Below are positions 6,490 to 52,208 of a stretch of DNA of 64,000 nucleotides, in pieces. The DNA is from Thermoguttaceae bacterium. GTDB lineage: Bacteria > Planctomycetota > Planctomycetia > Pirellulales > Thermoguttaceae. The DNA lies in NCBI GenBank assembly GCA_029975295.1, contig JARKPK010000120.1, positions 1 through 64,000 on the forward strand, written 5' to 3'. Below the pieces are notes generated by a model. That model did no database searches and was not told the origin of the DNA. It saw only the letters and a list, made by a program, of their open reading frames with translations. The stretch's first letter is position 1, and every line of letters starts with the position of its first letter. Position numbers and translations under genes: made by a program.

Positions 6490-7476
6490 ATGAAAGCAGC
6501 ATACATTAAGAGCACGGGCGCTCCTTCTCGGATTATCTATGGCGACCTACCCAAGCCGAAGCCCACCGGCAAACAAGTGCTTGTCGAGGTTGAGGCTGTG
6601 AGCGTCAATCCGATTGACACCTACTTGCGGTCGGGCACGGTGAAGATGCCGTTGCCCAATCCGTACATCATCGGCTGCGACCTGGCGGGCGAGGTCGTGG
6701 CCGTGGGACCGGAAGCCACGCGATTCAAGAAGGGGGATCGGGTTTGGGGGAGCAACCAGGGCCTGCTGGGCCGGCAGGGCACCTTCGCCCAGTTTGCCGC
6801 TGTGGACGAGGATTGGCTCTACCCGCTTCCGCCCGACGTGTCGGCCGACTCGGCCGCGGCCGTTGCGCTGGTCGGAATCACCGCGCACCTGGGATTGTTT
6901 CGCTGCGCTCAATTGAAGGACGGCGAGCGGCTCTTCGTCTCGGGCGGGTCGGGGGGCGTGGGGTCGTGCGTGGTCCAAATGGCCAAAGCAACCGGGGCGC
7001 AGGTGGTGACAACCGCCAGCACCCCGGCCAAAGCCGACGTGTGCCGGCAGTTGGGGGCCGACCATGTGCTTGGCCTGCGGCAACGCAATTTCAAAGCCGC
7101 CTTGGGAGAGCTGGGGCCGTTTCATGTTTGGTTCGAGACGAGCCGGCAAGTCGATTTCGACCGCATCGTGCCGACGATGGCGATCGGAGGCCGAATTGTG
7201 GTGATGGCCGGGCGCGAAGCGCGTCCGAAGTTTCCCCTGGGGCCATTCTATGTTCACGACCTGAAGCTGTTCGGATTCGCCATGTTCAACGCCCCGCCCG
7301 ACGAGCAGCGCAAGTGCGCCGCCGATATCAATCGGTGGCTGGTTCGCGGTCGGCTGAAGCCGTTGATCGATCGGGTGCTGCCGCTCAGCAAGGCGGCCGA
7401 GGCGCATCGCCTTCAAGAAGAGAACACGCTGAAAAAGCCCGGCCTGCTCTGCGGAAAGATTGTGCTGAATCCGTGA
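6490..7476 (+). CDS. NADPH:quinone oxidoreductase-type MDR dehydrogenase
   Basis: A 328-residue medium-chain dehydrogenase/reductase of the zinc-free quinone oxidoreductase (QOR) type. The N-terminal GroES-like catalytic domain (about 1-125) contains VSVNPIDTYLRSG and GCDLAGEVVAVG. The Rossmann domain (about 126-290) carries the nucleotide-binding loop GGSGGVG at 152-158. The structural-zinc cysteines of alcohol dehydrogenases are missing, as expected for QOR enzymes. It probably reduces quinones or reactive alpha,beta-unsaturated carbonyls with NADPH in the cytoplasm. It stands alone, divergent from ppiC; hrpB follows 122 bp downstream. The specific substrate cannot be read. Confidence 0.85.
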   Translation: MKAAYIKSTGAPSRIIYGDLPKPKPTGKQVLVEVEAVSVNPIDTYLRSGTVKMPLPNPYIIGCDLAGEVVAVGPEATRFKKGDRVWGSNQGLLGRQGTFAQFAAVDEDWLYPLPPDVSADSAAAVALVGITAHLGLFRCAQLKDGERLFVSGGSGGVGSCVVQMAKATGAQVVTTASTPAKADVCRQLGADHVLGLRQRNFKAALGELGPFHVWFETSRQVDFDRIVPTMAIGGRIVVMAGREARPKFPLGPFYVHDLKLFGFAMFNAPPDEQRKCAADINRWLVRGRLKPLIDRVLPLSKAAEAHRLQEENTLKKPGLLCGKIVLNP

Positions 7477-7598
7477 GTCGACGATGGCAACGCCGCAAGG
7501 GCAAGCGGGAACGCATCGGTGGGCACACGTTCTTCTCGCCGCAACGGTCTTGCGCCGATCGGTCGGGCCGAGCTTGTTGTAGTCGGGGTCGATAGACA

Positions 7599-10145
7599 AT
7601 GGCCGCCCCGTTGACGCCTCTTCCGATCGACCGGGTGATTGACCGGGCGGTTGAATCGCTGGCTGCCGTCGGCGCGATCGTTGTTTGTGCGCCGCCGGGC
7701 GCGGGAAAGACGACTCGGATTCCGCCGGCGGTGCTCGATTCGGGCCTTGCCGCGCACGGCCGCATCGTTGTTGTGCAGCCGCGTCGATTGGCCGCCCGCA
7801 TGTGCGCGCAGCGGATCGCCGACGAGCGGGGTTGCGCGTTGGGCGACGAGGTCGGCTACCAAGTGCGTTTCGAGCGGCGGTGCTGTCGGGCCACGCGGCT
7901 GCTGATCGTCACCGAAGGGGTTCTGCTCCGCTTTCTTCACGACGACCCGTGCTTGGAAGAGTGCGCCGCCGTCGTCTTCGACGAGTTCCATCTTCGTCGG
8001 CTCGATACGGACGTGGCCGTGGCCATGGTGCGGCGAATCCGCGAAACGGTGCGTCCGGATCTGAAGGTGGTGGTGATGTCGGCCACCTTCGACGCGCGAA
8101 AAGCGGCGGCCTACTGGGACGATTGTCCAATCGTCGAATGTCCGGGCCGGACCCATCCGGTCTCCATCGAGTATTGCAACGACCCTTTACCGCGTGATCC
8201 GGCCGAGAAGGCCGCCTGGGGGGTGGAGCAACTGCTCGGCCGTGTTCGCGGCGACTTGCTCGTCTTCTTGCCCGGCGCGGGCGAAATCCGCCGTGCAATG
8301 CGATTGCTGGCCGAGCGGCGTTTGGGGCCCAATACCGACGTTTTCCCGCTTTATGCCGATCTCGATCCTTCTGCCCAGCAGGCTGCCGTTGCGCCCGGGC
8401 CGCGGCGGAAGATCGTCCTGGCGACGAATGTTGCCGAAACGTCGATCACCATCGACGGCATCGAGGGCGTTGTCGATACGGGGCTGGCTCGGGCCCCCGT
8501 GTTCGATCCCACGGTGGGTTTAGAGCGACTGGAACTGCAATGGATTTCGCGAGCGGCCGCCGATCAACGGGCCGGGCGCGCGGGCCGAACTCGGCCCGGC
8601 GCATGCTTGCGGCTTTGGCCGGCGCGATCCGACGAGCATCGGCCCGCCCACGACACGCCCGAGATCGCGCGAATGGACCTTAGCGGGACAATCTTGCAAT
8701 TGCTCGCCTGGGGAGAGCGGCCGGAGGAGTTGGCATGGTTCGAAGCGCCGCCGGCGGACTCGCTGGCCCAAGCACGAACGCTGCTGACTGCTCTGGGGGC
8801 GATGGACCAGAACGGGCGGCCGACGGAACTGGGCCGCACGCTGGCCCGACTGCCCGTGCAGCCCCGATTGGGCAGGTTGCTGCGCGAGGCCTGGTTGTTG
8901 GGGCATCCCGCGGCCGGAGCGTTGGTTGCTGCGTTGCTTTGCGAGCATGATCCGTTTGACGGCCCGGCGGCAAACGAACGATCGCTGCGCCCGCCCTCCG
9001 ACTCGAACAGCGACGTGTACGATCGCGCCGTCGCGTTGCGGCAGTACGAGAACGGCGGACCGTCGTTGCCGTGGCTCGGCCGAATCCGATCGGGCGCGGC
9101 TCGCTTCGTCCTGCGGGCTGCCCGTCAATTGCAGCGCGAGGTGAGCGACGCATGGGGCGAGGCCCCTTCCGCCCGCTGCGACGAAGAAGAGGCGGTGCTT
9201 CGCTCGTTGTTGGCCGGTTTTCCCGATCGTTTGGTGCGGCGATCGGAGCCGGGGAGCAGATTCGGCCGCATGGTCGGAGGCCTGGGGGTTCGCTTGGCCG
9301 AGCGAAGCGCCGTGGGCGAGGCGATGCTCTATTTGGCGGTCAACGTCGATCGCGGTTCGTCTGAGGCGGTGGTCCGTTGGGCGTCGGCCGTTCGTCGCGA
9401 TTGGCTGCCGGAAGGCAAGCGACGAGTAGAAGTTCAAACCGAGTTCGATCCGCAACTGCAACGAGTGTTTGCCCGACGCCGAGAGTATTTCGACGACCTG
9501 CTCATCGATCAATCGCCGACGACGGCCGCAGAGCCGGACGCGCGAAAGCTGCTCACCGAGGCTGCGCAGCAAGCCCCATTATCCGAGTTCTTTGCGCCGG
9601 ACGATTCGGCGGCCGCCCACTATCTGGCTCGGGTGCGGTTTCTCGCCGGCGCCCTGCCCGAGTTCGGTTGGCCGCCCCTTGACGACGACAACGTGCGGCG
9701 CCTAGTCGAACAGGTTGCGGCGGGCTGCCGTTCGTTTGCCGATCTTCGTCAAGCGGATTGGCTTACGGCCATTCGTTCGATGCTCTCGCCCGTTCAAATC
9801 CAGTGCGTCGATCGCGAGGCCCCGGCGCGGCTTGCCGTCCCCAGCGGAAGCATGATCGCGTTGAACTATCCCATCGGTCGGCCGCCGGTGCTTGCCGTGC
9901 GCATCCAGGAGATTTTCGGATGGCGGGCCACGCCGCGATTGGCCGCCGGACGCGTGCCGGTGCTGTTGCATCTTCTCGGGCCCAACGGGCGCACCGAGCA
10001 AATCACCAACGATCTGGAGAGCTTCTGGCGCAGCACCTATCATCAAGTTCGCAAAGACCTCCGCCGCCGCTACCCGAAACACTCGTGGCCGGAAGACCCC
10101 TTGACGGCCCAGGCCGAGCGACGGCCGCAACGTCGGCAGCGCTGA
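7599..10145 (+). CDS. hrpB: ATP-dependent RNA helicase HrpB
   Basis: An 848-residue DEAH-box helicase of normal HrpB length. Motif I (GAGKTT) is at 34-39, motif Ia QPRRLAARM at 60-68, motif II is DEFH at 128-131, and motif III SAT is at 161-163. TNVAETSITIDGI and DQRAGRAGRTRPG supply motifs V and VI. The C-terminal third, including PRLAVPSGSMIALNY and the end WPEDPLTAQ, matches the HrpB-specific domain. Motif II is DEFH, the form usual for HrpB, rather than canonical DEAH. The cellular role of HrpB is poorly defined; related HrpA acts on RNA and stalled ribosomes. Start ATG 7599 is the first in frame and directly precedes the conserved region. Confidence 0.93.
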   Translation: MAAPLTPLPIDRVIDRAVESLAAVGAIVVCAPPGAGKTTRIPPAVLDSGLAAHGRIVVVQPRRLAARMCAQRIADERGCALGDEVGYQVRFERRCCRATRLLIVTEGVLLRFLHDDPCLEECAAVVFDEFHLRRLDTDVAVAMVRRIRETVRPDLKVVVMSATFDARKAAAYWDDCPIVECPGRTHPVSIEYCNDPLPRDPAEKAAWGVEQLLGRVRGDLLVFLPGAGEIRRAMRLLAERRLGPNTDVFPLYADLDPSAQQAAVAPGPRRKIVLATNVAETSITIDGIEGVVDTGLARAPVFDPTVGLERLELQWISRAAADQRAGRAGRTRPGACLRLWPARSDEHRPAHDTPEIARMDLSGTILQLLAWGERPEELAWFEAPPADSLAQARTLLTALGAMDQNGRPTELGRTLARLPVQPRLGRLLREAWLLGHPAAGALVAALLCEHDPFDGPAANERSLRPPSDSNSDVYDRAVALRQYENGGPSLPWLGRIRSGAARFVLRAARQLQREVSDAWGEAPSARCDEEEAVLRSLLAGFPDRLVRRSEPGSRFGRMVGGLGVRLAERSAVGEAMLYLAVNVDRGSSEAVVRWASAVRRDWLPEGKRRVEVQTEFDPQLQRVFARRREYFDDLLIDQSPTTAAEPDARKLLTEAAQQAPLSEFFAPDDSAAAHYLARVRFLAGALPEFGWPPLDDDNVRRLVEQVAAGCRSFADLRQADWLTAIRSMLSPVQIQCVDREAPARLAVPSGSMIALNYPIGRPPVLAVRIQEIFGWRATPRLAAGRVPVLLHLLGPNGRTEQITNDLESFWRSTYHQVRKDLRRRYPKHSWPEDPLTAQAERRPQRRQR

Positions 10146-45001: not shown

Positions 45002-46036
45002 TCAGGCCATCCAAGGACGTTCCCGGTTTTGGTACTGCCGGATCAACTTGCAAGCGATTTCGCAGTTCTCCTTCACTTGGAAATCGAACATTCCCACAGC
45101 GGTGAAATCGGCCCCGTTCTTAAAGGCGTAGGCGAGACCCTGCCGCGGCAAGAAGGCCCCGGCCGCCAGCACTTTGAAGGCGACCCACGGCTTGCGCACC
45201 TCGCGCATAAAGGCGATGGTCTCTTCCGGGTTGATGCACCACATGTTGTCATACCAGCCCGGTCCGCCATCGAGCCAAATGAACTCCTTGCGCAGTTCCT
45301 TGGGCGTGGCCGAGGGGTAGTCGTCGCTGTGGAGCGTTTTCACGTAGAAGTCGTTGGGGCATTGCCGCTTCTCGCACTCGATCGGCACGAGCAGCGAATG
45401 GCTGCCCACGCCCACGGGCAAGTCGTGCTTCTTGGCCAATTCCACCGCCCGCACAATCTCGTCGGCCCGTCCGGCTTTTACCAAATTGTCCGCTGCAACG
45501 CCCCATACGTAGAGGGCCACGGCGCCGAGATCAACCTGCTGCTTGATGTGATCCTTCAGCGACTGCTCGCCCTGGCCGAGTTCGACTCTGATATGCGGGA
45601 TGAACTGCATTCGCCCCTGAAACCGCTCGTTGTACTTGGCCACGAATGCCGCGCCGGTCTCGAACACCGTATTGATCCCGTGCTCTTCGGCAATGCGAAA
45701 GGTTTCGAAAATCTTCTCTTCAGTCACATAAGCGCGAAACAGGCGATTCACATAGCGCAGGTCGCGGGCGTGCATGAAGCCCGAGACAAGATTGCCGCCC
45801 AACATGATACGGCTGATCTTCGCCTTACCGATTTGGCCGCAGGGAACCTTTTCGGCCGATTCGGCCGCGGCTGCGGCGGGGGCGGCGGCTCCGGCCGCGT
45901 CCGACGATTGCGTTGACACCGACGCTGGCGATTCCGCGGCCGTGGTTGTTTGGGCCGATGCGCCTGCCACCGAAGCCGCCCCGGCGACCGCCACCGACCG
46001 ATTAAGGAACTCGCGCCGCGTTACGTGACTGCTCAT
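45002..46036 (-). CDS. Tat-exported protein with TIM-barrel-like domain, unknown function
   Basis: A 344-residue protein. ATG 46036 follows AAAGGGAAA and exposes a twin-arginine signal (VTRREFLNRSVAVAG). A long Ala/Ser/Thr-rich linker runs to about 65. The rest looks like a (beta/alpha)8 barrel of the aldo-keto reductase superfamily type: ISRIMLGGNLVSG at the first strand, AEEHGINTVFETG at strand 2, and VGVGSHSLLVP. The canonical Tyr and Lys of aldo-keto reductases could not be placed, so activity is unknown. The Tat signal implies a cofactor or metal bound before export. It is divergent from pstS with 193 bp between them. Confidence 0.72.
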   Translation of the reverse strand: MSSHVTRREFLNRSVAVAGAASVAGASAQTTTAAESPASVSTQSSDAAGAAAPAAAAAESAEKVPCGQIGKAKISRIMLGGNLVSGFMHARDLRYVNRLFRAYVTEEKIFETFRIAEEHGINTVFETGAAFVAKYNERFQGRMQFIPHIRVELGQGEQSLKDHIKQQVDLGAVALYVWGVAADNLVKAGRADEIVRAVELAKKHDLPVGVGSHSLLVPIECEKRQCPNDFYVKTLHSDDYPSATPKELRKEFIWLDGGPGWYDNMWCINPEETIAFMREVRKPWVAFKVLAAGAFLPRQGLAYAFKNGADFTAVGMFDFQVKENCEIACKLIRQYQNRERPWMA

Positions 46037-46229: not shown

Positions 46230-47144
46230 ATGGAGCGTCCCGTGACGATTCGAACCATTCCTTGGGCGTTGGCGTTGCTCTGTGCGGCTGCCCTTGTGCA
46301 TCTCGGTTGTGGCGGAGGCTCTGGCTCGGGGTCGCGAACGATCCGCATCGAAGGCTCCGACACGATGGTCAACCTGGCTCAGGCTTGGGCCGAGCGCTAT
46401 CACCGCGAGCATCCGGGCGTGAGCGTCCAAGTGCAAGGCGGCGGCTCAGGGGTCGGGTTTGCCAGCATGACGGACGGGAATTGCGACATCGCTGCTTCGA
46501 GCCGCGAAATCCGCCCCCGCGAGCGCGAGCGGATTGCCGCCCAACGGGGCCAGCCCGAAGAGCATATTGTGGGTTTCGACGCCCTGGCGATCTACGTCCA
46601 CCGCAGCAATCCGTTAGAAGAGATCACCCTCGAACAATTGGCCGAAATCTACGGGGAAGGCGGCACAATCACCCGATGGTCGCAACTGGGCGGTCCCGAC
46701 ATCGAAATCACCCGCGTGAGCCGTCAGAACAATTCGGGAACATACGCCTATTTTCGGGAGGCCGTGTTGGGCAAACAGCGCGAGTACAAGCTTGGGTCGA
46801 TCGACCAGAGCGGCTCGAAAGACGTAGTGGCCCTCGTGGCTACTACGCCCGGGGCCATCGGCTACAGCGGAATGGGCTACGCCACCGACGAGATCAAGCT
46901 TCTCAAAGTGGCCCGGGCGAAAGGAGAACCGGCCTACGCTCCGACCGTGGAGAACGTGCTGGCCGGCAAATACCCGATCACACGGCCTCTTTACCTTTAC
47001 ACCTGCGGCGAACCCCATGACGACGTGCTGAAGTTTTTCGAGTGGATCGACTCTCCCGAAGGCCAGGCCATTGTCGTCGAGCTCGGCTACATTCCGCGCG
47101 ATCGTGGAAAGAGCGGTTTGGGGCCGCAGCGGCCGCGGAGCTAG
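46230..47144 (+). CDS. pstS: Phosphate-binding lipoprotein PstS
   Basis: A 304-residue periplasmic phosphate receptor. ATG 46230 opens a lipoprotein-type signal ending VHLGC (Cys27). The phosphate-contact segments of the PstS family are visible: IEGSDTM at the N-terminus, GGGSGVGFASM, AASSRE, and SRQNNSGTYAYF. Its position as first gene of the pst operon supports the call. It is expected to be induced by phosphate limitation, but no clear Pho box was recognised in the upstream region. The 167-bp gap before pstC could hold a processing site that raises PstS level. Confidence 0.92.
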   Translation: MERPVTIRTIPWALALLCAAALVHLGCGGGSGSGSRTIRIEGSDTMVNLAQAWAERYHREHPGVSVQVQGGGSGVGFASMTDGNCDIAASSREIRPRERERIAAQRGQPEEHIVGFDALAIYVHRSNPLEEITLEQLAEIYGEGGTITRWSQLGGPDIEITRVSRQNNSGTYAYFREAVLGKQREYKLGSIDQSGSKDVVALVATTPGAIGYSGMGYATDEIKLLKVARAKGEPAYAPTVENVLAGKYPITRPLYLYTCGEPHDDVLKFFEWIDSPEGQAIVVELGYIPRDRGKSGLGPQRPRS

Positions 47145-47311: not shown

Positions 47312-48616
47312 ATGACCAAGGCTTCTTCGGTGCAACACCAGCTTCCCCTGCCGGCCCCGCGTCGTTGGCCGGCCCGCTTGCGCCGTTGGGGCGAGGCGCT
47401 CATCGAGCTGGCGATCGTCGTTTGCGGCTGGAGTTCGATTCTCTTTGTTTTCGGCATCTTTTTTTTCGTTTTTCGCGAGGCGGTGCCGGTGCTTTGGGGG
47501 CAGCCTTCGCACGCGGTGCTGGCCATTCCGGGAGCGAACAACGACTTGATGATCGAAGCGGTCGAGGCCGGCCCGGAGAATAACGATATTCGCGTCGGGC
47601 TGACTCCGGCGGACGACGGCGAGGTCCGAATCGACTTCGACGAGCATGAGGGGCTGATTGTCGTTCGTTACGTTCAGGGACGCACTACGGCCGCAGACGT
47701 GTGTCAGGCGTTTGCCGCGTCGCCGCTGGGGCAGCGGTTCCGAGCCAAGTTCGCGCCCAACCGGCGCGAGCGCGGATCGCCGGACTCGGGCGCGGCCGGC
47801 TCGGGCGCGATCACCGCCGCACCCCGCGAGGCCGTGTTGTCCGAAGGGCGTTACGGGCTGGACCTGCGGGAGTTCTTTACCAGCCCGAATTGGCGTCCGG
47901 CGTCCGAGATGCAGCCCCAGTACGGCACGCTGGCTCTTCTGGTCGGTTCCTTGGCCGTCACCCTTTTGGCCATGGTTTTGGCTGTGCCGCTTGGGCTGGG
48001 GGCGGCGGTGTTCGTTTCGGAGTTCTGCCGCGGCAAGACGCGGGAAACGCTGAAGATCGTCATCGAGCTGTTGGCCGCTGTTCCTTCGGTGGTGTGGGGC
48101 TTCATCGGTTTGGCCGTCCTAGGGCCGATCATCATGACATTGACCGGCGCAACCGTCGGAATCAACCTGCTCAACGGCGGCATCATCCTGGCGTTGATGA
48201 GCGTGCCGATCATCGTCTCGGTCGGGGAAGACGCGTTGAAGGCTGTTCCCGATTCGTACCGAGAAGCGGCTCTGTCATTGGGCGCGAATCGCGTGGAAAT
48301 GGTCTTTCGCGTGCTTTTTCCCGCAGCCAAGCACGGTTTGCTCGCGGCCGTTCTATTGGGAGTGGGACGGGCGATTGGCGAGACAATGGCCGTGCTGATG
48401 GCCACCGGGCACGCGGTGCAGATTCCGTACAGCATTCTCGACCCGATCCGCACCTTGACGGCCACGATTGCCGCCGAACTGGGAGAAACGGTCAAAGGCG
48501 ACGAGCACTATCGCGTGCTCTTTCTGATCGGCGTCGTTCTTTTCGCCGTAACCTTTGTGATCAACTTCACCGCTGACGTAATCGTCAAGGGCATTCGCAG
48601 TGAATCGCGCGACTGA
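47312..48616 (+). CDS. pstC: Phosphate ABC transporter permease PstC with extra periplasmic domain
   Basis: A 434-residue inner-membrane permease, ~115 residues longer than E. coli PstC. TM1 is at about 31-55, and the conserved permease core resumes at about 200 (YGTLALLVGSLAVTLLA). The EAA coupling loop is DSYREAALSLGANRVEM. Between them, residues ~65-185 form an inserted soluble domain in the first periplasmic loop, with VRIDFDEHEGLIVVRY and AADVCQAFAASPLGQRF plus a Gly/Ser-rich segment. The insert's role is unknown. The stop overlaps the pstA GTG start by 17 nt, indicating coupled translation. Confidence 0.92.
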   Translation: MTKASSVQHQLPLPAPRRWPARLRRWGEALIELAIVVCGWSSILFVFGIFFFVFREAVPVLWGQPSHAVLAIPGANNDLMIEAVEAGPENNDIRVGLTPADDGEVRIDFDEHEGLIVVRYVQGRTTAADVCQAFAASPLGQRFRAKFAPNRRERGSPDSGAAGSGAITAAPREAVLSEGRYGLDLREFFTSPNWRPASEMQPQYGTLALLVGSLAVTLLAMVLAVPLGLGAAVFVSEFCRGKTRETLKIVIELLAAVPSVVWGFIGLAVLGPIIMTLTGATVGINLLNGGIILALMSVPIIVSVGEDALKAVPDSYREAALSLGANRVEMVFRVLFPAAKHGLLAAVLLGVGRAIGETMAVLMATGHAVQIPYSILDPIRTLTATIAAELGETVKGDEHYRVLFLIGVVLFAVTFVINFTADVIVKGIRSESRD

Positions 48617-49889
48617 AGCGACAGATTCGGCCTCGTCCTCTCTGAGGTACGCGGTTGTCGACCGGCTCGACACGATTGATCGCGCTGCGCAATTCGAGCC
48701 GCTTGCCGCCGCTCTGAACCGATTGTCTTCGATCGCCGGTCCCGCCGAAGGCCGACCTCCCGCAACCGCAGTCTATTTGATTAGCACCCGGGATGGGCAT
48801 GAAAGCCGATCCGGCCCGTGGAAGGTTCGTCGCGAGTACTTTGTCGATCCTCGCACCGGCGACAGCAGCGGAGACGGATCGGAAGAATCGCCCTGGGACG
48901 GTTGGACGACCGTTGCCGCCGGGATTGCCGAAGCCGTTGCTCAGGGACGCCTCCGGCTGGCGGCTGGTCAGGCGTTGCGCATCGTGGTGCGCGAGCCGTT
49001 TACTGTCACGCGGCACGAATGCCGCCGCAACAGGCGCGAGAATGTCGTTCGCGCCGTATTCGCTGTGATGACCGCCGCGCTGGTCCTCCCGGTGGCGGCG
49101 ATTCTGATCTATCTGTTCGCGCGGGCCTGGCCGGTTTTCGGATGGGAATTCTTCTTTTCCAATCCGAAGGAGTATATGACCGCCGGCGGCATCTGGGCGC
49201 CGCTGGTCGGCACGTTCTTCCTGGTGGTCTTTTCCCTTTTGGCGGCCGCGCCGATCGGAGTGTTGGCAGGCGTTTACCTGAACGAATACGCGCGCGACAA
49301 CTGGTGGACGCGGCTGGTCAACTTGGCGGTGGTCAACTTGGCCGGGGTTCCGAGCATCGTTCATGCCTTGTTCGGCGTGGGCGCGTTCGTCTTGTTCGCC
49401 AAGCTGGGCCGTTCGCTGACGGCGGCCTCGCTCACCTTGGCGGTGATGACTCTGCCGGTGATCATCACCAGCACGCGCGAAGCGCTGGCTTCGGTTCCGA
49501 TGTCGTTTCGCGAAGCCTGTTGGAACATGGGCGCGACCCGGTGGCAAACGATACGAACGATCGTGCTTCCCAACTCGATCAGCGGCATTCTCACCGGCGT
49601 GATCTTGCAGGTGGCCCGCGCCGCCGGGGAAACGGCCCCGATCCTCTTTACAGGCGCTGTCTTTTTCGTCCCTGTGGCCGATCACGGGTGGGCTTCGTTT
49701 GTGCCCTACGGTCCGCACGATCGCTGCATGGCGCTTTCGATGCATCTATTCACGCTGGCAACGCAGGTCCGCGGCGTTTCGGCTGAAATGCAGTATGGCG
49801 TGGCCGCCGTGTTGATCGCCCTGGTCTTGGCGGTCAACAGCCTCTCTATCGCGGTGCGGGGCTACTTGAGGTCGCGAAAGAAATGGTGA
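48600..49889 (+). CDS. pstA: Phosphate ABC transporter permease PstA with long N-terminal extension
   Basis: A 429-residue permease. The GTG start at 48600 overlaps pstC. The first transmembrane helix begins only at about 149, so ~145 residues precede it, against ~20 in E. coli PstA. Within the extension, YFVDPRTGDSSGDGSEESPW (80-99) followed by LAAGQALRIVV resembles the opening repeat of right-handed beta-helix (DUF1565-like) proteins. The core is a normal PstA: GTFFLVVFSLLAAAPIGV, the EAA loop MSFREACWNMGATRWQTI, and AGETAPILFTG. The stop overlaps the pstB1 start by 7 nt. Confidence 0.92.
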   Translation: MNRATEATDSASSSLRYAVVDRLDTIDRAAQFEPLAAALNRLSSIAGPAEGRPPATAVYLISTRDGHESRSGPWKVRREYFVDPRTGDSSGDGSEESPWDGWTTVAAGIAEAVAQGRLRLAAGQALRIVVREPFTVTRHECRRNRRENVVRAVFAVMTAALVLPVAAILIYLFARAWPVFGWEFFFSNPKEYMTAGGIWAPLVGTFFLVVFSLLAAAPIGVLAGVYLNEYARDNWWTRLVNLAVVNLAGVPSIVHALFGVGAFVLFAKLGRSLTAASLTLAVMTLPVIITSTREALASVPMSFREACWNMGATRWQTIRTIVLPNSISGILTGVILQVARAAGETAPILFTGAVFFVPVADHGWASFVPYGPHDRCMALSMHLFTLATQVRGVSAEMQYGVAAVLIALVLAVNSLSIAVRGYLRSRKKW

Positions 49890-50650
49890 CGGACGCAACC
49901 GACATTCATGTGCGCGTGGAAGACCTTTCGGTCCATTTCGGGCCGAAGGCCGCGTTGCGCAATATGACGCTCGCCATTCCGCGACGGCAGATTTTCGGCA
50001 TTATCGGTCCGGCCAATTCGGGCAAGACGACATTGCTTCGGGCAATCAATCGGACTTTGGACTTCATTCCTCGCTCGGTGGTGCGCGGCACGGTCGAGAT
50101 CGACGGCGTCGACGTGCTGCGGTTGCGCGACCCTTGTTCGCTTCGTCGCCGCGTGGGGATGGTGTTTCCGCTGCCGGTGGGCCTGCCCCTTTCTGTTTAC
50201 GAGAACGTCGCTTACGCCCCCCGTCGCGCCGGGGTGCGCGACCGCCGCCTGCTCGATGAAATCGTGGAACGTTGTCTGCGCCAGGCCATGCTGTGGGATG
50301 AAGTGAAGGACCGGCTCGACCTGCTGGGCACGCGGCTTTCCGGCGGCCAACAGCAGCGTTTGACCTTGGCTCGCGCCCTATCGATGGAGCCGGAACTGCT
50401 GTGCCTCGACGAGTTCTCGATCGCCATCGACCCGGTGACGACGATGAAGATCGAAGACATTTTGCTCGACTTGAAGAACACGATGACGATTGTTTTGGTC
50501 ACCAATCTGGTGCAACAGGCCCGCCGTTTGGCTGATCGCACGGCGTTTTTCAGCGCCGGGGCGTTGGTCGAGGAGGCTGCCACCGAGCAACTGTTCAGCA
50601 ATCCGTCGCAAAGACTGACGGAGCGATACGTCAACGGAGATTTCGGCTGA
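49883..50650 (+). CDS. pstB: PstB1, PstB-like ATPase with degenerate Q-loop and H-loop
   Basis: A 255-residue PstB paralogue. Walker A is GPANSGKTT at 42-50, with the Lys kept. The signature LSGGQ (152-156) is perfect. Walker B is LLCLDEF (172-178), with catalytic Glu177 kept but DEP changed to DEF. The Q-loop, normally MVFQxPxPxP, reads MVFPLPVGLP, so the Gln is Pro96. The switch His, normally VTHNMQQA, is Asn208 in VTNLVQQA. The D-loop SALD is IAID. These residues sit at standard PstB spacing and the reading frame is intact, so this is divergence, not a sequencing error. It is predicted to need a partner for ATP hydrolysis. Confidence 0.9.
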   Translation: MVTDATDIHVRVEDLSVHFGPKAALRNMTLAIPRRQIFGIIGPANSGKTTLLRAINRTLDFIPRSVVRGTVEIDGVDVLRLRDPCSLRRRVGMVFPLPVGLPLSVYENVAYAPRRAGVRDRRLLDEIVERCLRQAMLWDEVKDRLDLLGTRLSGGQQQRLTLARALSMEPELLCLDEFSIAIDPVTTMKIEDILLDLKNTMTIVLVTNLVQQARRLADRTAFFSAGALVEEAATEQLFSNPSQRLTERYVNGDFG

Positions 50651-50718
50651 TCGTATTGCCGGCCGATCGCTCAGCCACCATCCAACCACACAGCACCGCC
50701 AACGCCCATTGCCTGCCC

Positions 50719-51510
50719 ATGTCCGCCGCTCACGCCGCAAGCCCGAATGACGTCGCCGTCCGCACCCGCGGGCTGAGCCTCTGGTACGGCGAGTTCCAGG
50801 CGCTGAAGAATGTCACGGTGGAGATCAAACCGCGGCTGATCACTGCGCTGATCGGCCCCTCGGGCTGCGGCAAGACGACGCTGTTGCGATGCTTCAATCG
50901 CATCAACGAACGGTATGAGAATGTGCGCACCGAGGGCCATGTGGAGATCCTGGGAAAGAACATCTACGATCCCGACGTTTCGCTGAGCGAACTGCGGAAG
51001 AATGTCGGCATGGTGTTCCAACGGCCCAACCCGCTGCCGATTTCCATCTACGAGAACGTGCTGTTCGGCATTCGCACTCATGCCGCAAGGTCGGCCATCC
51101 CGCGGCCGCGCTGCGACGAAATGGTCGAACGATCGTTGCGGGCCGTCCAACTGTGGGACGACGTCAAAGACCGTCTCCACCGAAAGGCGACCAAGCTTAC
51201 GCTCGAACAGCAGCAGAAACTGTGCATTGCGCGGCTCTTGCCGCTGAAGCCGCGCGTGATCTTGATGGATGAGCCGTGTTCGGCCCTCGATGCCGAAGGC
51301 ATTGAACGGATTGAAGAACTCGTGGAGGAACTCCGTCACGCTTTCACGATCATCATCGTCACGCACAACATGGGGCAGGCGCGGCGGATCAGCCAAGAGT
51401 GCATTTTCATGCACTTGGGCGAGATCGTCGAGCATGGTCCGACGCGGGACATTTTCATGACGCCTCAGCGGCGCGAGACGGAGATGTATGTGACCGGCCG
51501 CTACGGCTGA
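50719..51510 (+). CDS. pstB: PstB2, PstB-like ATPase with degenerate signature motif
   Basis: A 263-residue PstB paralogue, with ATG 50719 preferred to TTG 50656. Walker A is GPSGCGKTT (46-54), Q-loop MVFQRPNPLP has Gln101, Walker B ILMDEP has Asp184 and Glu185, the D-loop SALD is at 188-191, and switch His216 is in VTHNMGQA. All are canonical PstB. The signature, normally LSGGQQQR, reads LTLEQQQK at 160-167, losing the Ser and both Gly that contact ATP. This pattern is the mirror of PstB1, 68 bp upstream. The pair could form a heterodimer with one complete composite ATP site. Confidence 0.9.
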   Translation: MSAAHAASPNDVAVRTRGLSLWYGEFQALKNVTVEIKPRLITALIGPSGCGKTTLLRCFNRINERYENVRTEGHVEILGKNIYDPDVSLSELRKNVGMVFQRPNPLPISIYENVLFGIRTHAARSAIPRPRCDEMVERSLRAVQLWDDVKDRLHRKATKLTLEQQQKLCIARLLPLKPRVILMDEPCSALDAEGIERIEELVEELRHAFTIIIVTHNMGQARRISQECIFMHLGEIVEHGPTRDIFMTPQRRETEMYVTGRYG

Positions 51511-51548: not shown

Positions 51549-52208
51549 ATGTCGGTGCATTTGCAGCGTGAATTGAACAGACTGAAAGCCGATCTGCTGG
51601 CCAACTGCGCGATCGTCGAAGAGCAGGTGCACCTTGCCGTTCAGTCGGCCCTGCGCCGCGACGAAGAGACGGCGCACAAAGTCGAGCTCCGCGACGCGGA
51701 GGTGGACCGCCGCGAGGTCGACATCGAAGAGCGCTGCCTGGCCGTGTTGGCGTTGTATCAGCCGGTCGCAGGCGACTTGCGGATGGTTGTCGCCGTTCTG
51801 AAGATCAACAATGACTTGGAGCGAATCGGTGACTTGGCGGTTAACGTGGCGCACAAGGCCTTGGCTTTGTGCAAACAACCGATTGACGAGGCGCCCGCCG
51901 AGCTGGAAATGATGGCCGAGCGGGCGCAGCAGATGCTCCGCGACGCGATCGACGCGATGGTGAATCTTGACGCCGCGCTGGCCCACGACGTTTGCCGCCG
52001 CGATGACGAGGTGGACCGCATGAAGCGAACGATCCGATGCGCTCTGGAAGAACGGATTCTTCGTCAGCCCGAGTTGACTCGTCCGTTGATGCGGCTATTG
52101 GCCGTGAGCCGCAATATCGAGCGGATCGCCGATTGCGCGACGAATATCGCCGAAGACGTGATCTACGTCACGCAAGGCCGCATTGTGCGTCACAGCGAGG
52201 GCGACTGA
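51549..52208 (+). CDS. phoU: Phosphate transport system regulator PhoU
   Basis: A 219-residue all-helical protein with the two three-helix PhoU repeats. The paired metal-binding signatures are visible: NNDLERIGDLAVNVAHKA in the first repeat and SRNIERIADCATNIAEDV in the second. PhoU couples the Pst transporter to the phosphate-sensing histidine kinase and limits phosphate uptake. It is the last gene of the pst operon, 38 bp after pstB2. No phoR/phoB genes are in the window. Confidence 0.93.
   Translation: MSVHLQRELNRLKADLLANCAIVEEQVHLAVQSALRRDEETAHKVELRDAEVDRREVDIEERCLAVLALYQPVAGDLRMVVAVLKINNDLERIGDLAVNVAHKALALCKQPIDEAPAELEMMAERAQQMLRDAIDAMVNLDAALAHDVCRRDDEVDRMKRTIRCALEERILRQPELTRPLMRLLAVSRNIERIADCATNIAEDVIYVTQGRIVRHSEGD

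Follow-up and report, generated by a model that had tools for sequence, protein, structure and literature searches.

Tandem PstB paralogues with mirror-image motif loss: a predicted obligate heterodimeric phosphate ATPase with one working ATP site

Herein, we describe two adjacent genes, pstB1 and pstB2, in a pst operon of a Thermoguttaceae bacterium, whose products lack complementary ATPase motifs and are very probably obligate partners, forming one working ATP site (the Walker side of PstB2 with the signature of PstB1) and one degenerate site. The operon lies in a window of 64,000 nucleotides, which is the whole stretch of DNA analysed. The Pst system is the standard importer for high-affinity phosphate uptake, and its ATPase subunit PstB is generally regarded as homodimeric. 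We infer the heterodimer, its single working site, and its coupling from the sequence, the operon, co-inheritance, dN/dS, and milder relatives of the pair. No earlier description of mirror-image PstB pairs was found among the titles and abstract openings listed by searches of openly licensed PubMed Central literature.

RESULTS

The pst operon in the window

The operon is complete and lies on the forward strand in the order pstS-pstC-pstA-pstB1-pstB2-phoU. The ORF of pstS, the phosphate-binding protein gene (46230..47144), opens at 46035, with a likely start at 46230; the longer ORF matched TIGR02136 (E value of 1.2e-69), and PF12849 was also found. PstC (47312..48616) and PstA (48600..49889) are separate BPD_transp_1 importer permease subunits, each with a long N-terminal extension, and scored over the cut-offs of TIGR02138 (259.4 bits) and TIGR00974 (248.6 bits), respectively. 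The pstA gene overlaps pstB1 (49883..50650) by 7 bases, pstB2 (50719..51510) follows after a gap of 68 bp, and phoU (51549..52208) scored 195.7 bits with TIGR02135, over the cut-off. PstB1 is an intact ORF of 255 aa and PstB2 one of 263 aa from the ATG at 50719; the automatic ORF call for PstB2 took the upstream TTG at 50656 and gave 284 aa. The ORFs and the pst gene order thus bear out the sequence-only reading, which had both pstB genes intact and inside the operon, and related loci also had a pst operon context. A comparison of EAA coupling loops between the permeases, aimed at finding whether PstC or PstA holds PstB1, showed those of PstA to be distinctive in pair operons; it does not assign the partner of PstB1.

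TIGR00972 was the top-scoring NCBIfam family for both PstB1 (282.9 bits) and PstB2 (335.4 bits), and neither reached its curated cut-off of 343.2, so that such proteins may be misnamed or missed. The AlphaFold2 monomer of PstB1 (pLDDT 89.9) has a predicted fold like that of E. coli PstB, its top PDB matches being 9k3s (TM 0.90) and 9k3x (TM 0.92) at 40% identity. The PstB2 monomer had a pLDDT of 91.0, and its likeness to PstB was compared by sequence profile only.

Complementary motif loss in PstB1 and PstB2

PstB1 carries an altered Walker A, GPANSGKT in place of GPSGCGKS/T (50006..50029), and a Q-loop of FPLPVG with Pro96 instead of Gln (50165..50182). Its signature LSGGQ is intact (residues 152-156, 50336..50350). 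At the Walker B end and D-loop, DEFSIAID (50408..50431), DEP has become D176-E177-F178 and SALD has become I180-A-I-D183, and Asn208 (50504..50506) replaces the switch His. The Walker A Lys, Walker B Asp, and catalytic Glu are retained. PstB2, in turn, keeps Q101, DEP, SALD, and H216, whereas LTLEQ replaces LSGGQ; its degenerate signature and following residues read LTLEQQQK (51196..51219), with Lys instead of Arg three residues past the signature. The acidic residue stands at the second Gly of the signature, which is the position of CFTR G551D. Reading both ORFs confirmed every residue that the sequence-only reading had given for this mirror-image loss: the Q-loop Gln, LSGGQ, DEP, SALD, and the switch His never occur together in one chain, and each protein lacks what the other has.

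The same states were tabulated across distinct sequences, with identical rows merged and those whose motifs contained a gap or X omitted. The Q-loop Pro, the intact LSGGQ, and the Asn were each present in all 128 distinct PstB1, and the PstB2 motifs GPSGCGK, FQRPNP, DEP, SALD, and VTHN were found in 124 of 124, so the motifs of the complete site are invariant in these sequences. Some positions of the degenerate site vary: the fourth-position Gly of Walker A was replaced in 121 PstB1 and kept in 7, and the D-loop read IAID in 82 and IAVD in 46. Assignment of rows to PstB1 relied on DEF and to PstB2 on LE/LD, which makes these items circular in this table. Over the loci read, the degenerate motifs themselves were mostly constant.

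T1246 and R555 bond across the interface of CFTR (PMC4956468, in part). Their counterparts were Ser/Arg in 23 of 23 canonical PstB, Ala/Arg in 127 of 130 PstB1, and Ser/Lys in 126 of 126 PstB2, in a second table that left out sequences gapped or ambiguous (X) in Walker A or the signature; the Lys count is circular because Lys also served to label PstB2. The second Gly of the PstB2 signature was Glu in 125 and Asp in 1 of 126 distinct sequences of this second table, again with LE/LD among the labels of PstB2. The split of these residues is in line with one complete and one degenerate site. Against this explanation, the Ser was retained in two of six milder Verrucomicrobiota PstB1.

Distribution and co-inheritance of the pair

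An unbiased count of pairs came from a motif-blind TIGR00972 scan of 246 Planctomycetota genomes, with adjacency marked by eye from the match tables. Among 34 tandem pstB pairs, 33 showed the mirror-image split (21 of the window type and 12 milder), one was canonical in both genes, and none had both losses on the same gene. In a milder pair, Ala replaced the Q-loop Gln, Asn the switch His, and LSAEQ the signature. The question raised by the sequence-only reading, whether the Q-loop/His loss and the signature loss fall on separate genes, is thereby answered in the affirmative for all but the canonical pair. As both sets of changes recur together in the relatives examined, and less severely in further pairs, the pattern is more than chance. 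Tandem controls comprised three loci read from the 60 of 140 plasmid-search matches that were listed; two Firmicute tandem loci had canonical motifs in both genes, and the haloarchaeal control locus had a single pstB. Canonical tandem pairs thus exist in Firmicutes and, once, in the Planctomycetota genomes scanned, and a tandem pstB alone does not imply the split.

Similar pairs occurred, among the matches listed, under contig labels of Verrucomicrobiota, Poribacteria, Acidobacteria, and others, in environmental bacteria of several groups. In Verrucomicrobiota, 20 of 194 genomes matched, and the best 10 of these 20, when read, were all mirror-image. In the family sample, all 18 PstB1-bearing genomes carried PstB2 downstream, within 140 bases except in two (0.7 kb in G004 and G058). 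In the phylum sample, PstB2 was downstream of PstB1 in 28 of 28; the contig ended within PstB2 in two of these, once ahead of the signature. A further scan selected named loci for containing GGQQQRLT and DEFSIA[IV]D, so PstB1 motif states are ascertained there; PstB2 accompanied PstB1 in 79 of 80 loci among the matches listed, and the 80th PstB2 ran off the contig. Every downstream partner in the phylum-sample and named-locus listings with its signature inside the contig had LxLE or LxLD together with the Lys. Contig ends aside, no genome read had one pstB gene without its partner.

In a tree of a chosen subset (113 rows, each 235 aa or longer, which excluded one milder PstB2), PstB1 types fell on one side of a 100/96 branch and PstB2 types formed a 100/99 clade.

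Proposed mechanism and alternatives

On the preferred reading, PstB1 and PstB2 would be the non-identical ATPase subunits of a single Pst importer, paired head-to-tail beneath the PstC-PstA permease. The Walker A/B, Q-loop, and His of PstB2 would combine with the LSGGQ of PstB1 into a complete site that hydrolyses ATP. The opposite site, built from the Walker A/B of PstB1 and the LxLEQ of PstB2, would not hydrolyse ATP at a useful rate, given that it has no Q-loop Gln, no switch His, an altered D-loop, and an acidic signature, and its role in the machine would be fixed or regulatory. Two copies of the same subunit would give a dimer with both sites broken, which would make the pair obligate. 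In favour of this reading, the Q160K mutation of E. coli PstB, which corresponds to Q140K in the MalK signature, abolished phosphate transport (PMC5775613, in part).

The genome also encodes a canonical PstB, which could in principle pair with PstB1 or PstB2. It might instead power both permeases by itself, leaving PstB1 and PstB2 as non-hydrolysing accessory regulators, for example in PhoU docking; one tandem PstB of E. faecalis has an accessory role (PMC12096839, in part), and a canonical PstB was present in 9 of the 18 family-sample genomes with the pair. However, the other 9 had no other PstB at E<=1e-40. No other PstB over the TIGR00972 cut-off was found in 12 of 22 genomes of the phylum sample or in 9 of 14 genomes labelled as other groups, which we chose from the 80 named loci among the matches listed, and in 10 of 12 milder-pair genomes no PstB apart from the pair scored over this cut-off. 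These genomes are mostly incomplete bins, in which single absences are weak, and the named and unnamed sets overlap (L118 and L012, for example, are one contig), so that they do not add up to independent totals. Among the 14, a Poribacteria chromosome 1 record of 5.06 Mb carries a third degenerate paralogue in addition to B1 and B2. The sequence-only reading had named a canonical third pstB serving the operon as grounds for refutation; such a gene does exist here, but it sits in its own pstS-pstC-pstA-pstB-phoU operon. With half of the family sample lacking one, the pair does not in general depend on a third PstB for its function, and service by it was rejected as a general account. As a complete catalytic site is also preserved across PstB1 and PstB2, we consider the accessory-regulator account very unlikely.

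It is extremely improbable that one of the two proteins works alone as a homodimer while the other is a slowly decaying duplicate, even though PstB2 by itself retains all but the signature. Both pstB genes are under purifying selection, as the check on each gene proposed in the sequence-only reading revealed: the median dN/dS was 0.076 for PstB1 and 0.044 for PstB2, compared with 0.099 for canonical PstB, in comparisons that share sequences, include duplicates, and are in many cases near saturation at synonymous sites. Together with the constancy of the degenerate motifs, these values led us to reject decay of one gene; in addition, the two genes occurred together in the genomes read, contig ends aside, and the E. 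coli signature-position mutant did not transport. A nearly symmetric, tuned motor, in which both sites are active and the degenerate one is slow, is unlikely. The three catalytic residues retained in PstB1 make some hydrolysis at the degenerate site possible, and ABCC1 tolerates mutation of the H-loop His in its degenerate site (PMC7756269, in part), but here Gln to Pro, His to Asn, the D-loop change, and the acidic signature all converge on one composite site. The obligate heterodimer with one working site therefore remains the preferred reading.

DISCUSSION

If the proposed heterodimer is correct, a two-gene branch of ATPases with one working site exists under several phylum labels, with milder forms still living. 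The role of a degenerate ATP site could then be asked directly in an importer tied to PhoU/PhoR signalling. In E. coli, the conformation of the Pst ATPase has been linked to such signalling (PMC5775613, in part). A more speculative and rather unlikely extension is that the degenerate site is devoted to signalling. Nucleotide bound by PstB1 and facing the acidic signature would then act as a charge-operated gate that informs PhoU of the transport state, with one ATP site of the importer serving transport and the other phosphate signalling. In Poribacteria, where the operon also has a third degenerate ATPase and a second permease, this logic may go further.

Heterodimeric exporters of the TM287/288 class have an exporter-type permease domain fused to the NBD. 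By analogy, PstB1/PstB2 would work like this class without being a member of it, since the permeases PstC and PstA are separate. In TM287/288, TmrAB, TAP, and CFTR, deviations on both NBDs leave one composite site degenerate and the other complete (PMC7756269, in part), and two NBDs with deviations in opposite motifs and one complete composite site were likewise found here. Those proteins, however, are exporter-type or a channel, whereas the present pair belongs to a phosphate system with BPD_transp_1 importer permeases, and PstB1 differs from them in keeping the catalytic Glu and having lost the Q-loop Gln.

Among importers, E. coli PstSCAB has the same operon type, fold, and kind of permease, but its single PstB carries all motifs and was modelled as a homodimer (PMC5775613, in part), whereas here they are divided between two proteins. 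The tandem PstBA/PstBB of B. subtilis has been modelled as a pair with one copy of each (PMC11466899, in part). In Firmicute tandems such as pstB1/pstB2 of E. faecalis (PMC12096839, in part), both genes are canonical, unlike PstB1 and PstB2 here. The B. subtilis importers RbsA and NupO also have one site judged degenerate from sequence, but they are Type II importers outside the Pst family, in which a single chain holds both NBDs and the second Walker A has no Lys (PMC11466899, in part).

Motif losses and operon of the tandem PstB proteins

The window's genome (5.0 Mb, 190 contigs, 99.99% complete) carries a complete pst operon, pstS, pstC, pstA, pstB1, pstB2, and phoU, at 46-52 kb of the window, with PstB1 at 49883-50650 and PstB2 at 50719-51510 on the + strand. 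The sequence-only reading had taken the two as an obligate heterodimer with one complete ATP site, and the residues on which it relied were all borne out: Pro96, LSGGQ (152-156), DEF, IAID, and Asn208 in PstB1, and Gln101, LTLEQ, DEP, SALD, and His216 in PstB2. In addition, the Walker A of PstB1 is GPANSGKT versus the usual GPSGCGKS/T, and a Lys replaces Arg three residues past the PstB2 signature; these two additional items also fit the motif split. Although PstB1 (282.9 bits) and PstB2 (335.4 bits) scored below the cut-off (343.2) of the NCBIfam PstB model, PstB was the top-scoring NCBIfam family for both. In single-chain structure prediction each protein was well folded, and the closest match of the PstB1 model was E. 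coli PstB.

PstC and PstA (47312-49889) have long N-terminal stretches ahead of the conserved permease domain, the best model matches beginning at residues 186 and 148, respectively. PstA (48600-49889) and its counterparts in related loci also have a distinctive coupling (EAA) loop in operons with the pair, EACWN, in which the C, the W, and the N were each present in 98% of loops (60 loops from 81 loci); the majority letters in canonical operons were EGSYA (9 loops).

The split is constant among relatives

A PstB1 orthologue was found in 18 of 81 family genomes, always with PstB2 downstream and always with the split, the motifs being FPLPVG, LSGGQ, DEFSIAID, and TNLVQQA in PstB1 and FQRPNP, L[TS]LEQ, DEPCSALD, and VTHNM in PstB2. 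PstB1 was recognized by score in 24 of 296 genomes of the order sample, where 23 of the 24 loci read showed PstB2 and the remaining PstB1 stood at a contig end; 10 additional matches had canonical-like PstB scores, and the six of these that were read were all canonical. In the phylum sample, PstB1 occurred in 28 of 392 genomes, each with an adjoining PstB2 (two cut by the contig end).

A pattern scan of species genomes yielded at least 514 relatives. Among the best 80 of these, which were read, PstB2 with LxL[ED] lay downstream in 79 and ran off the contig in the 80th; since the loci were selected by PstB1 motifs, the scan is informative on PstB2 only. The labels of these 80 were Planctomycetota, Verrucomicrobiota, Poribacteria, Acidobacteria, KSB1, Kiritimatiellae, Gemmatimonadetes, and Deltaproteobacteria, any single label being weak evidence because the record titles call these genomes MAGs. 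The pstB1-pstB2 gap was 0.7 kb in two genomes of one genus (L022, L028) and ~1.3 kb in one Poribacteria locus (L168).

A third PstB is often not found

A canonical PstB elsewhere in the genome that serves the operon had been named by the sequence-only reading as one possible refutation of the pair. Such a gene is present on another contig of the window's genome, but in its own operon, pstS-pstC-pstA-pstB-phoU. It does not refute the pair reading, since all 18 family genomes with PstB1 have PstB2 and in nine of them the search at E<=1e-40 gave no other PstB. Among 22 pair-bearing genomes of the phylum sample, a third PstB over the cut-off was present in nine, not found in 12, and ambiguous in one, whose match is truncated. 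No PstB over the cut-off outside the pair itself was found in 10 of 12 genomes with the milder pairs described below, nor was a third one in nine of 14 genomes traced from named loci. As most genomes are incomplete, a missing third PstB is weak evidence in any single case.

A motif-blind search recovers the same division

We searched 246 phylum genomes by the PstB family model alone, without motif selection, and rescanned all genomes with at least two matches (74 plus the window's genome). There were 34 adjacent tandem pstB pairs, of which 21 were of the window's type, 12 of a milder type, and one canonical in both genes. The expectation that the Q-loop/switch losses and the signature loss fall on separate genes thus held in 33 of 34 pairs, and none of the 34 had both losses on one gene. 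In the tree described below, both members of the canonical pair (L205, genome G489) fell within the canonical PstB proteins.

In pairs of the milder type, the upstream gene keeps LSGGQ and DEP, with Gln replaced by Ala (11) or Ser (1), His by Asn, and, in 10 of 12 cases, SALD by SGLD. Its downstream neighbour keeps Gln and DEP, as well as His in all 11 with that stretch in the contig; its signature is LSAEQ (6), LLPDE (2), LSLEQ, LSPEQ, LPPEQ, or LSGEA, and its D-loop SALD in 10 of 12, with SSLD and STLD in the others. In Verrucomicrobiota, the PstB1 profile matched in 20 of 194 genomes, and the best 10 of these 20 matches were all mirror-image pairs, four strong and six mild. As a control, two Firmicute tandem pairs were canonical in both genes, and canonical motifs in both genes are also reported for the E. 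faecalis pair (PMC12096839).

In a midpoint-rooted maximum-likelihood tree of 113 proteins, 37 PstB1 and 12 milder upstream proteins fell to the same side of a branch supported at 100/96; 37 PstB2 with 11 milder downstream proteins formed a 100/99 clade, and strong PstB1 and strong PstB2 each formed one group (100/99 and 100/100). The simplest story is a single duplication in which one copy lost the Q-loop/switch residues and the other its signature, the strong type having changed further later. In comparisons that are not independent, the median dN/dS was 0.076 for PstB1 (range 0.025-0.233, 160 comparisons), 0.044 for PstB2 (0.014-0.175, 106), and 0.099 for canonical PstB (0.081-0.175, 8).

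Proposed complete and degenerate ATP sites of the pair

In ABC ATPases, the Walker side of one subunit and its partner's signature together make up each ATP site. Across 128 distinct PstB1 and 124 distinct PstB2 proteins, the positions of the complete site were invariant, and the variable ones were the PstB1 Walker A and two PstB2 signature positions. We placed the CFTR residue pair T1246-R555 on PstB by CFTR numbering and the spacing of motifs; the residues at these positions are Ser/Arg in canonical PstB (23/23), Ala/Arg in PstB1 (127/130), and Ser/Lys in PstB2 (126/126). It is therefore the residues meeting at the degenerate site that are altered. In the milder type, Arg was retained in 12/12 and Ser lost in 12/12 Planctomycetota pairs, whereas Ser was lost in only four of six milder Verrucomicrobiota pairs. 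The position of the second signature Gly, Gly551 in CFTR, was acidic in 126/126 PstB2 and 12/12 milder partners.

According to PMC4956468, T1246 and R555 bond across the CFTR interface, site 2 hydrolyses ATP and site 1 is catalytically inactive, and in the G551D mutant bound ATP becomes an inhibitory ligand because its charge and that of the signature repel each other. Human transporters that have a degenerate site carry deviations on both NBDs, and those of CFTR all cluster at one site (PMC7756269); PstB1/PstB2 sort their deviations in the same way. E. coli PstB Q160K and E179Q gave no phosphate transport and signalled opposite states (PMC5775613). These results support the view that a broken signature would keep a homodimer from transporting, and also that PhoU/PhoR read the conformation of the ATPase. 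We infer a PstB1-PstB2 heterodimer, hydrolysis at a single site, and any signalling role the pair may have.

Tandem pstB genes (PMC12096839) and degenerate ATP sites generally (PMC7756269) are already known, as are importers with degenerate sites and the modelling of the B. subtilis pair as two distinct PstB chains (PMC11466899). Our literature searches found no description of a Pst importer that divides its ATPase motifs between two genes, occurs in records labelled as several phyla, and also survives in milder forms.

Additional genes in some pair operons

In the Poribacteria locus L164 (5180-9431), an ion-channel gene (PF00520, TTVGYGD) sits between pstA and pstB1. This and 19 other Poribacteria loci have genes for a weak second permease and for B3, a third PstB-like ATPase, between pstB2 and phoU. 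B3 has Asn for His, Arg for Gln in 13 of 20, and an LSxGQ-like signature, and four B3 proteins formed a separate group in the tree. In the Verrucomicrobia-labelled locus L197, pstB2 is followed at 7280-8299 by the gene of a third ABC protein that is strongly degenerate (LNNRQ, DKP, TND); in the tree, this protein fell on a very long branch among the upstream group.
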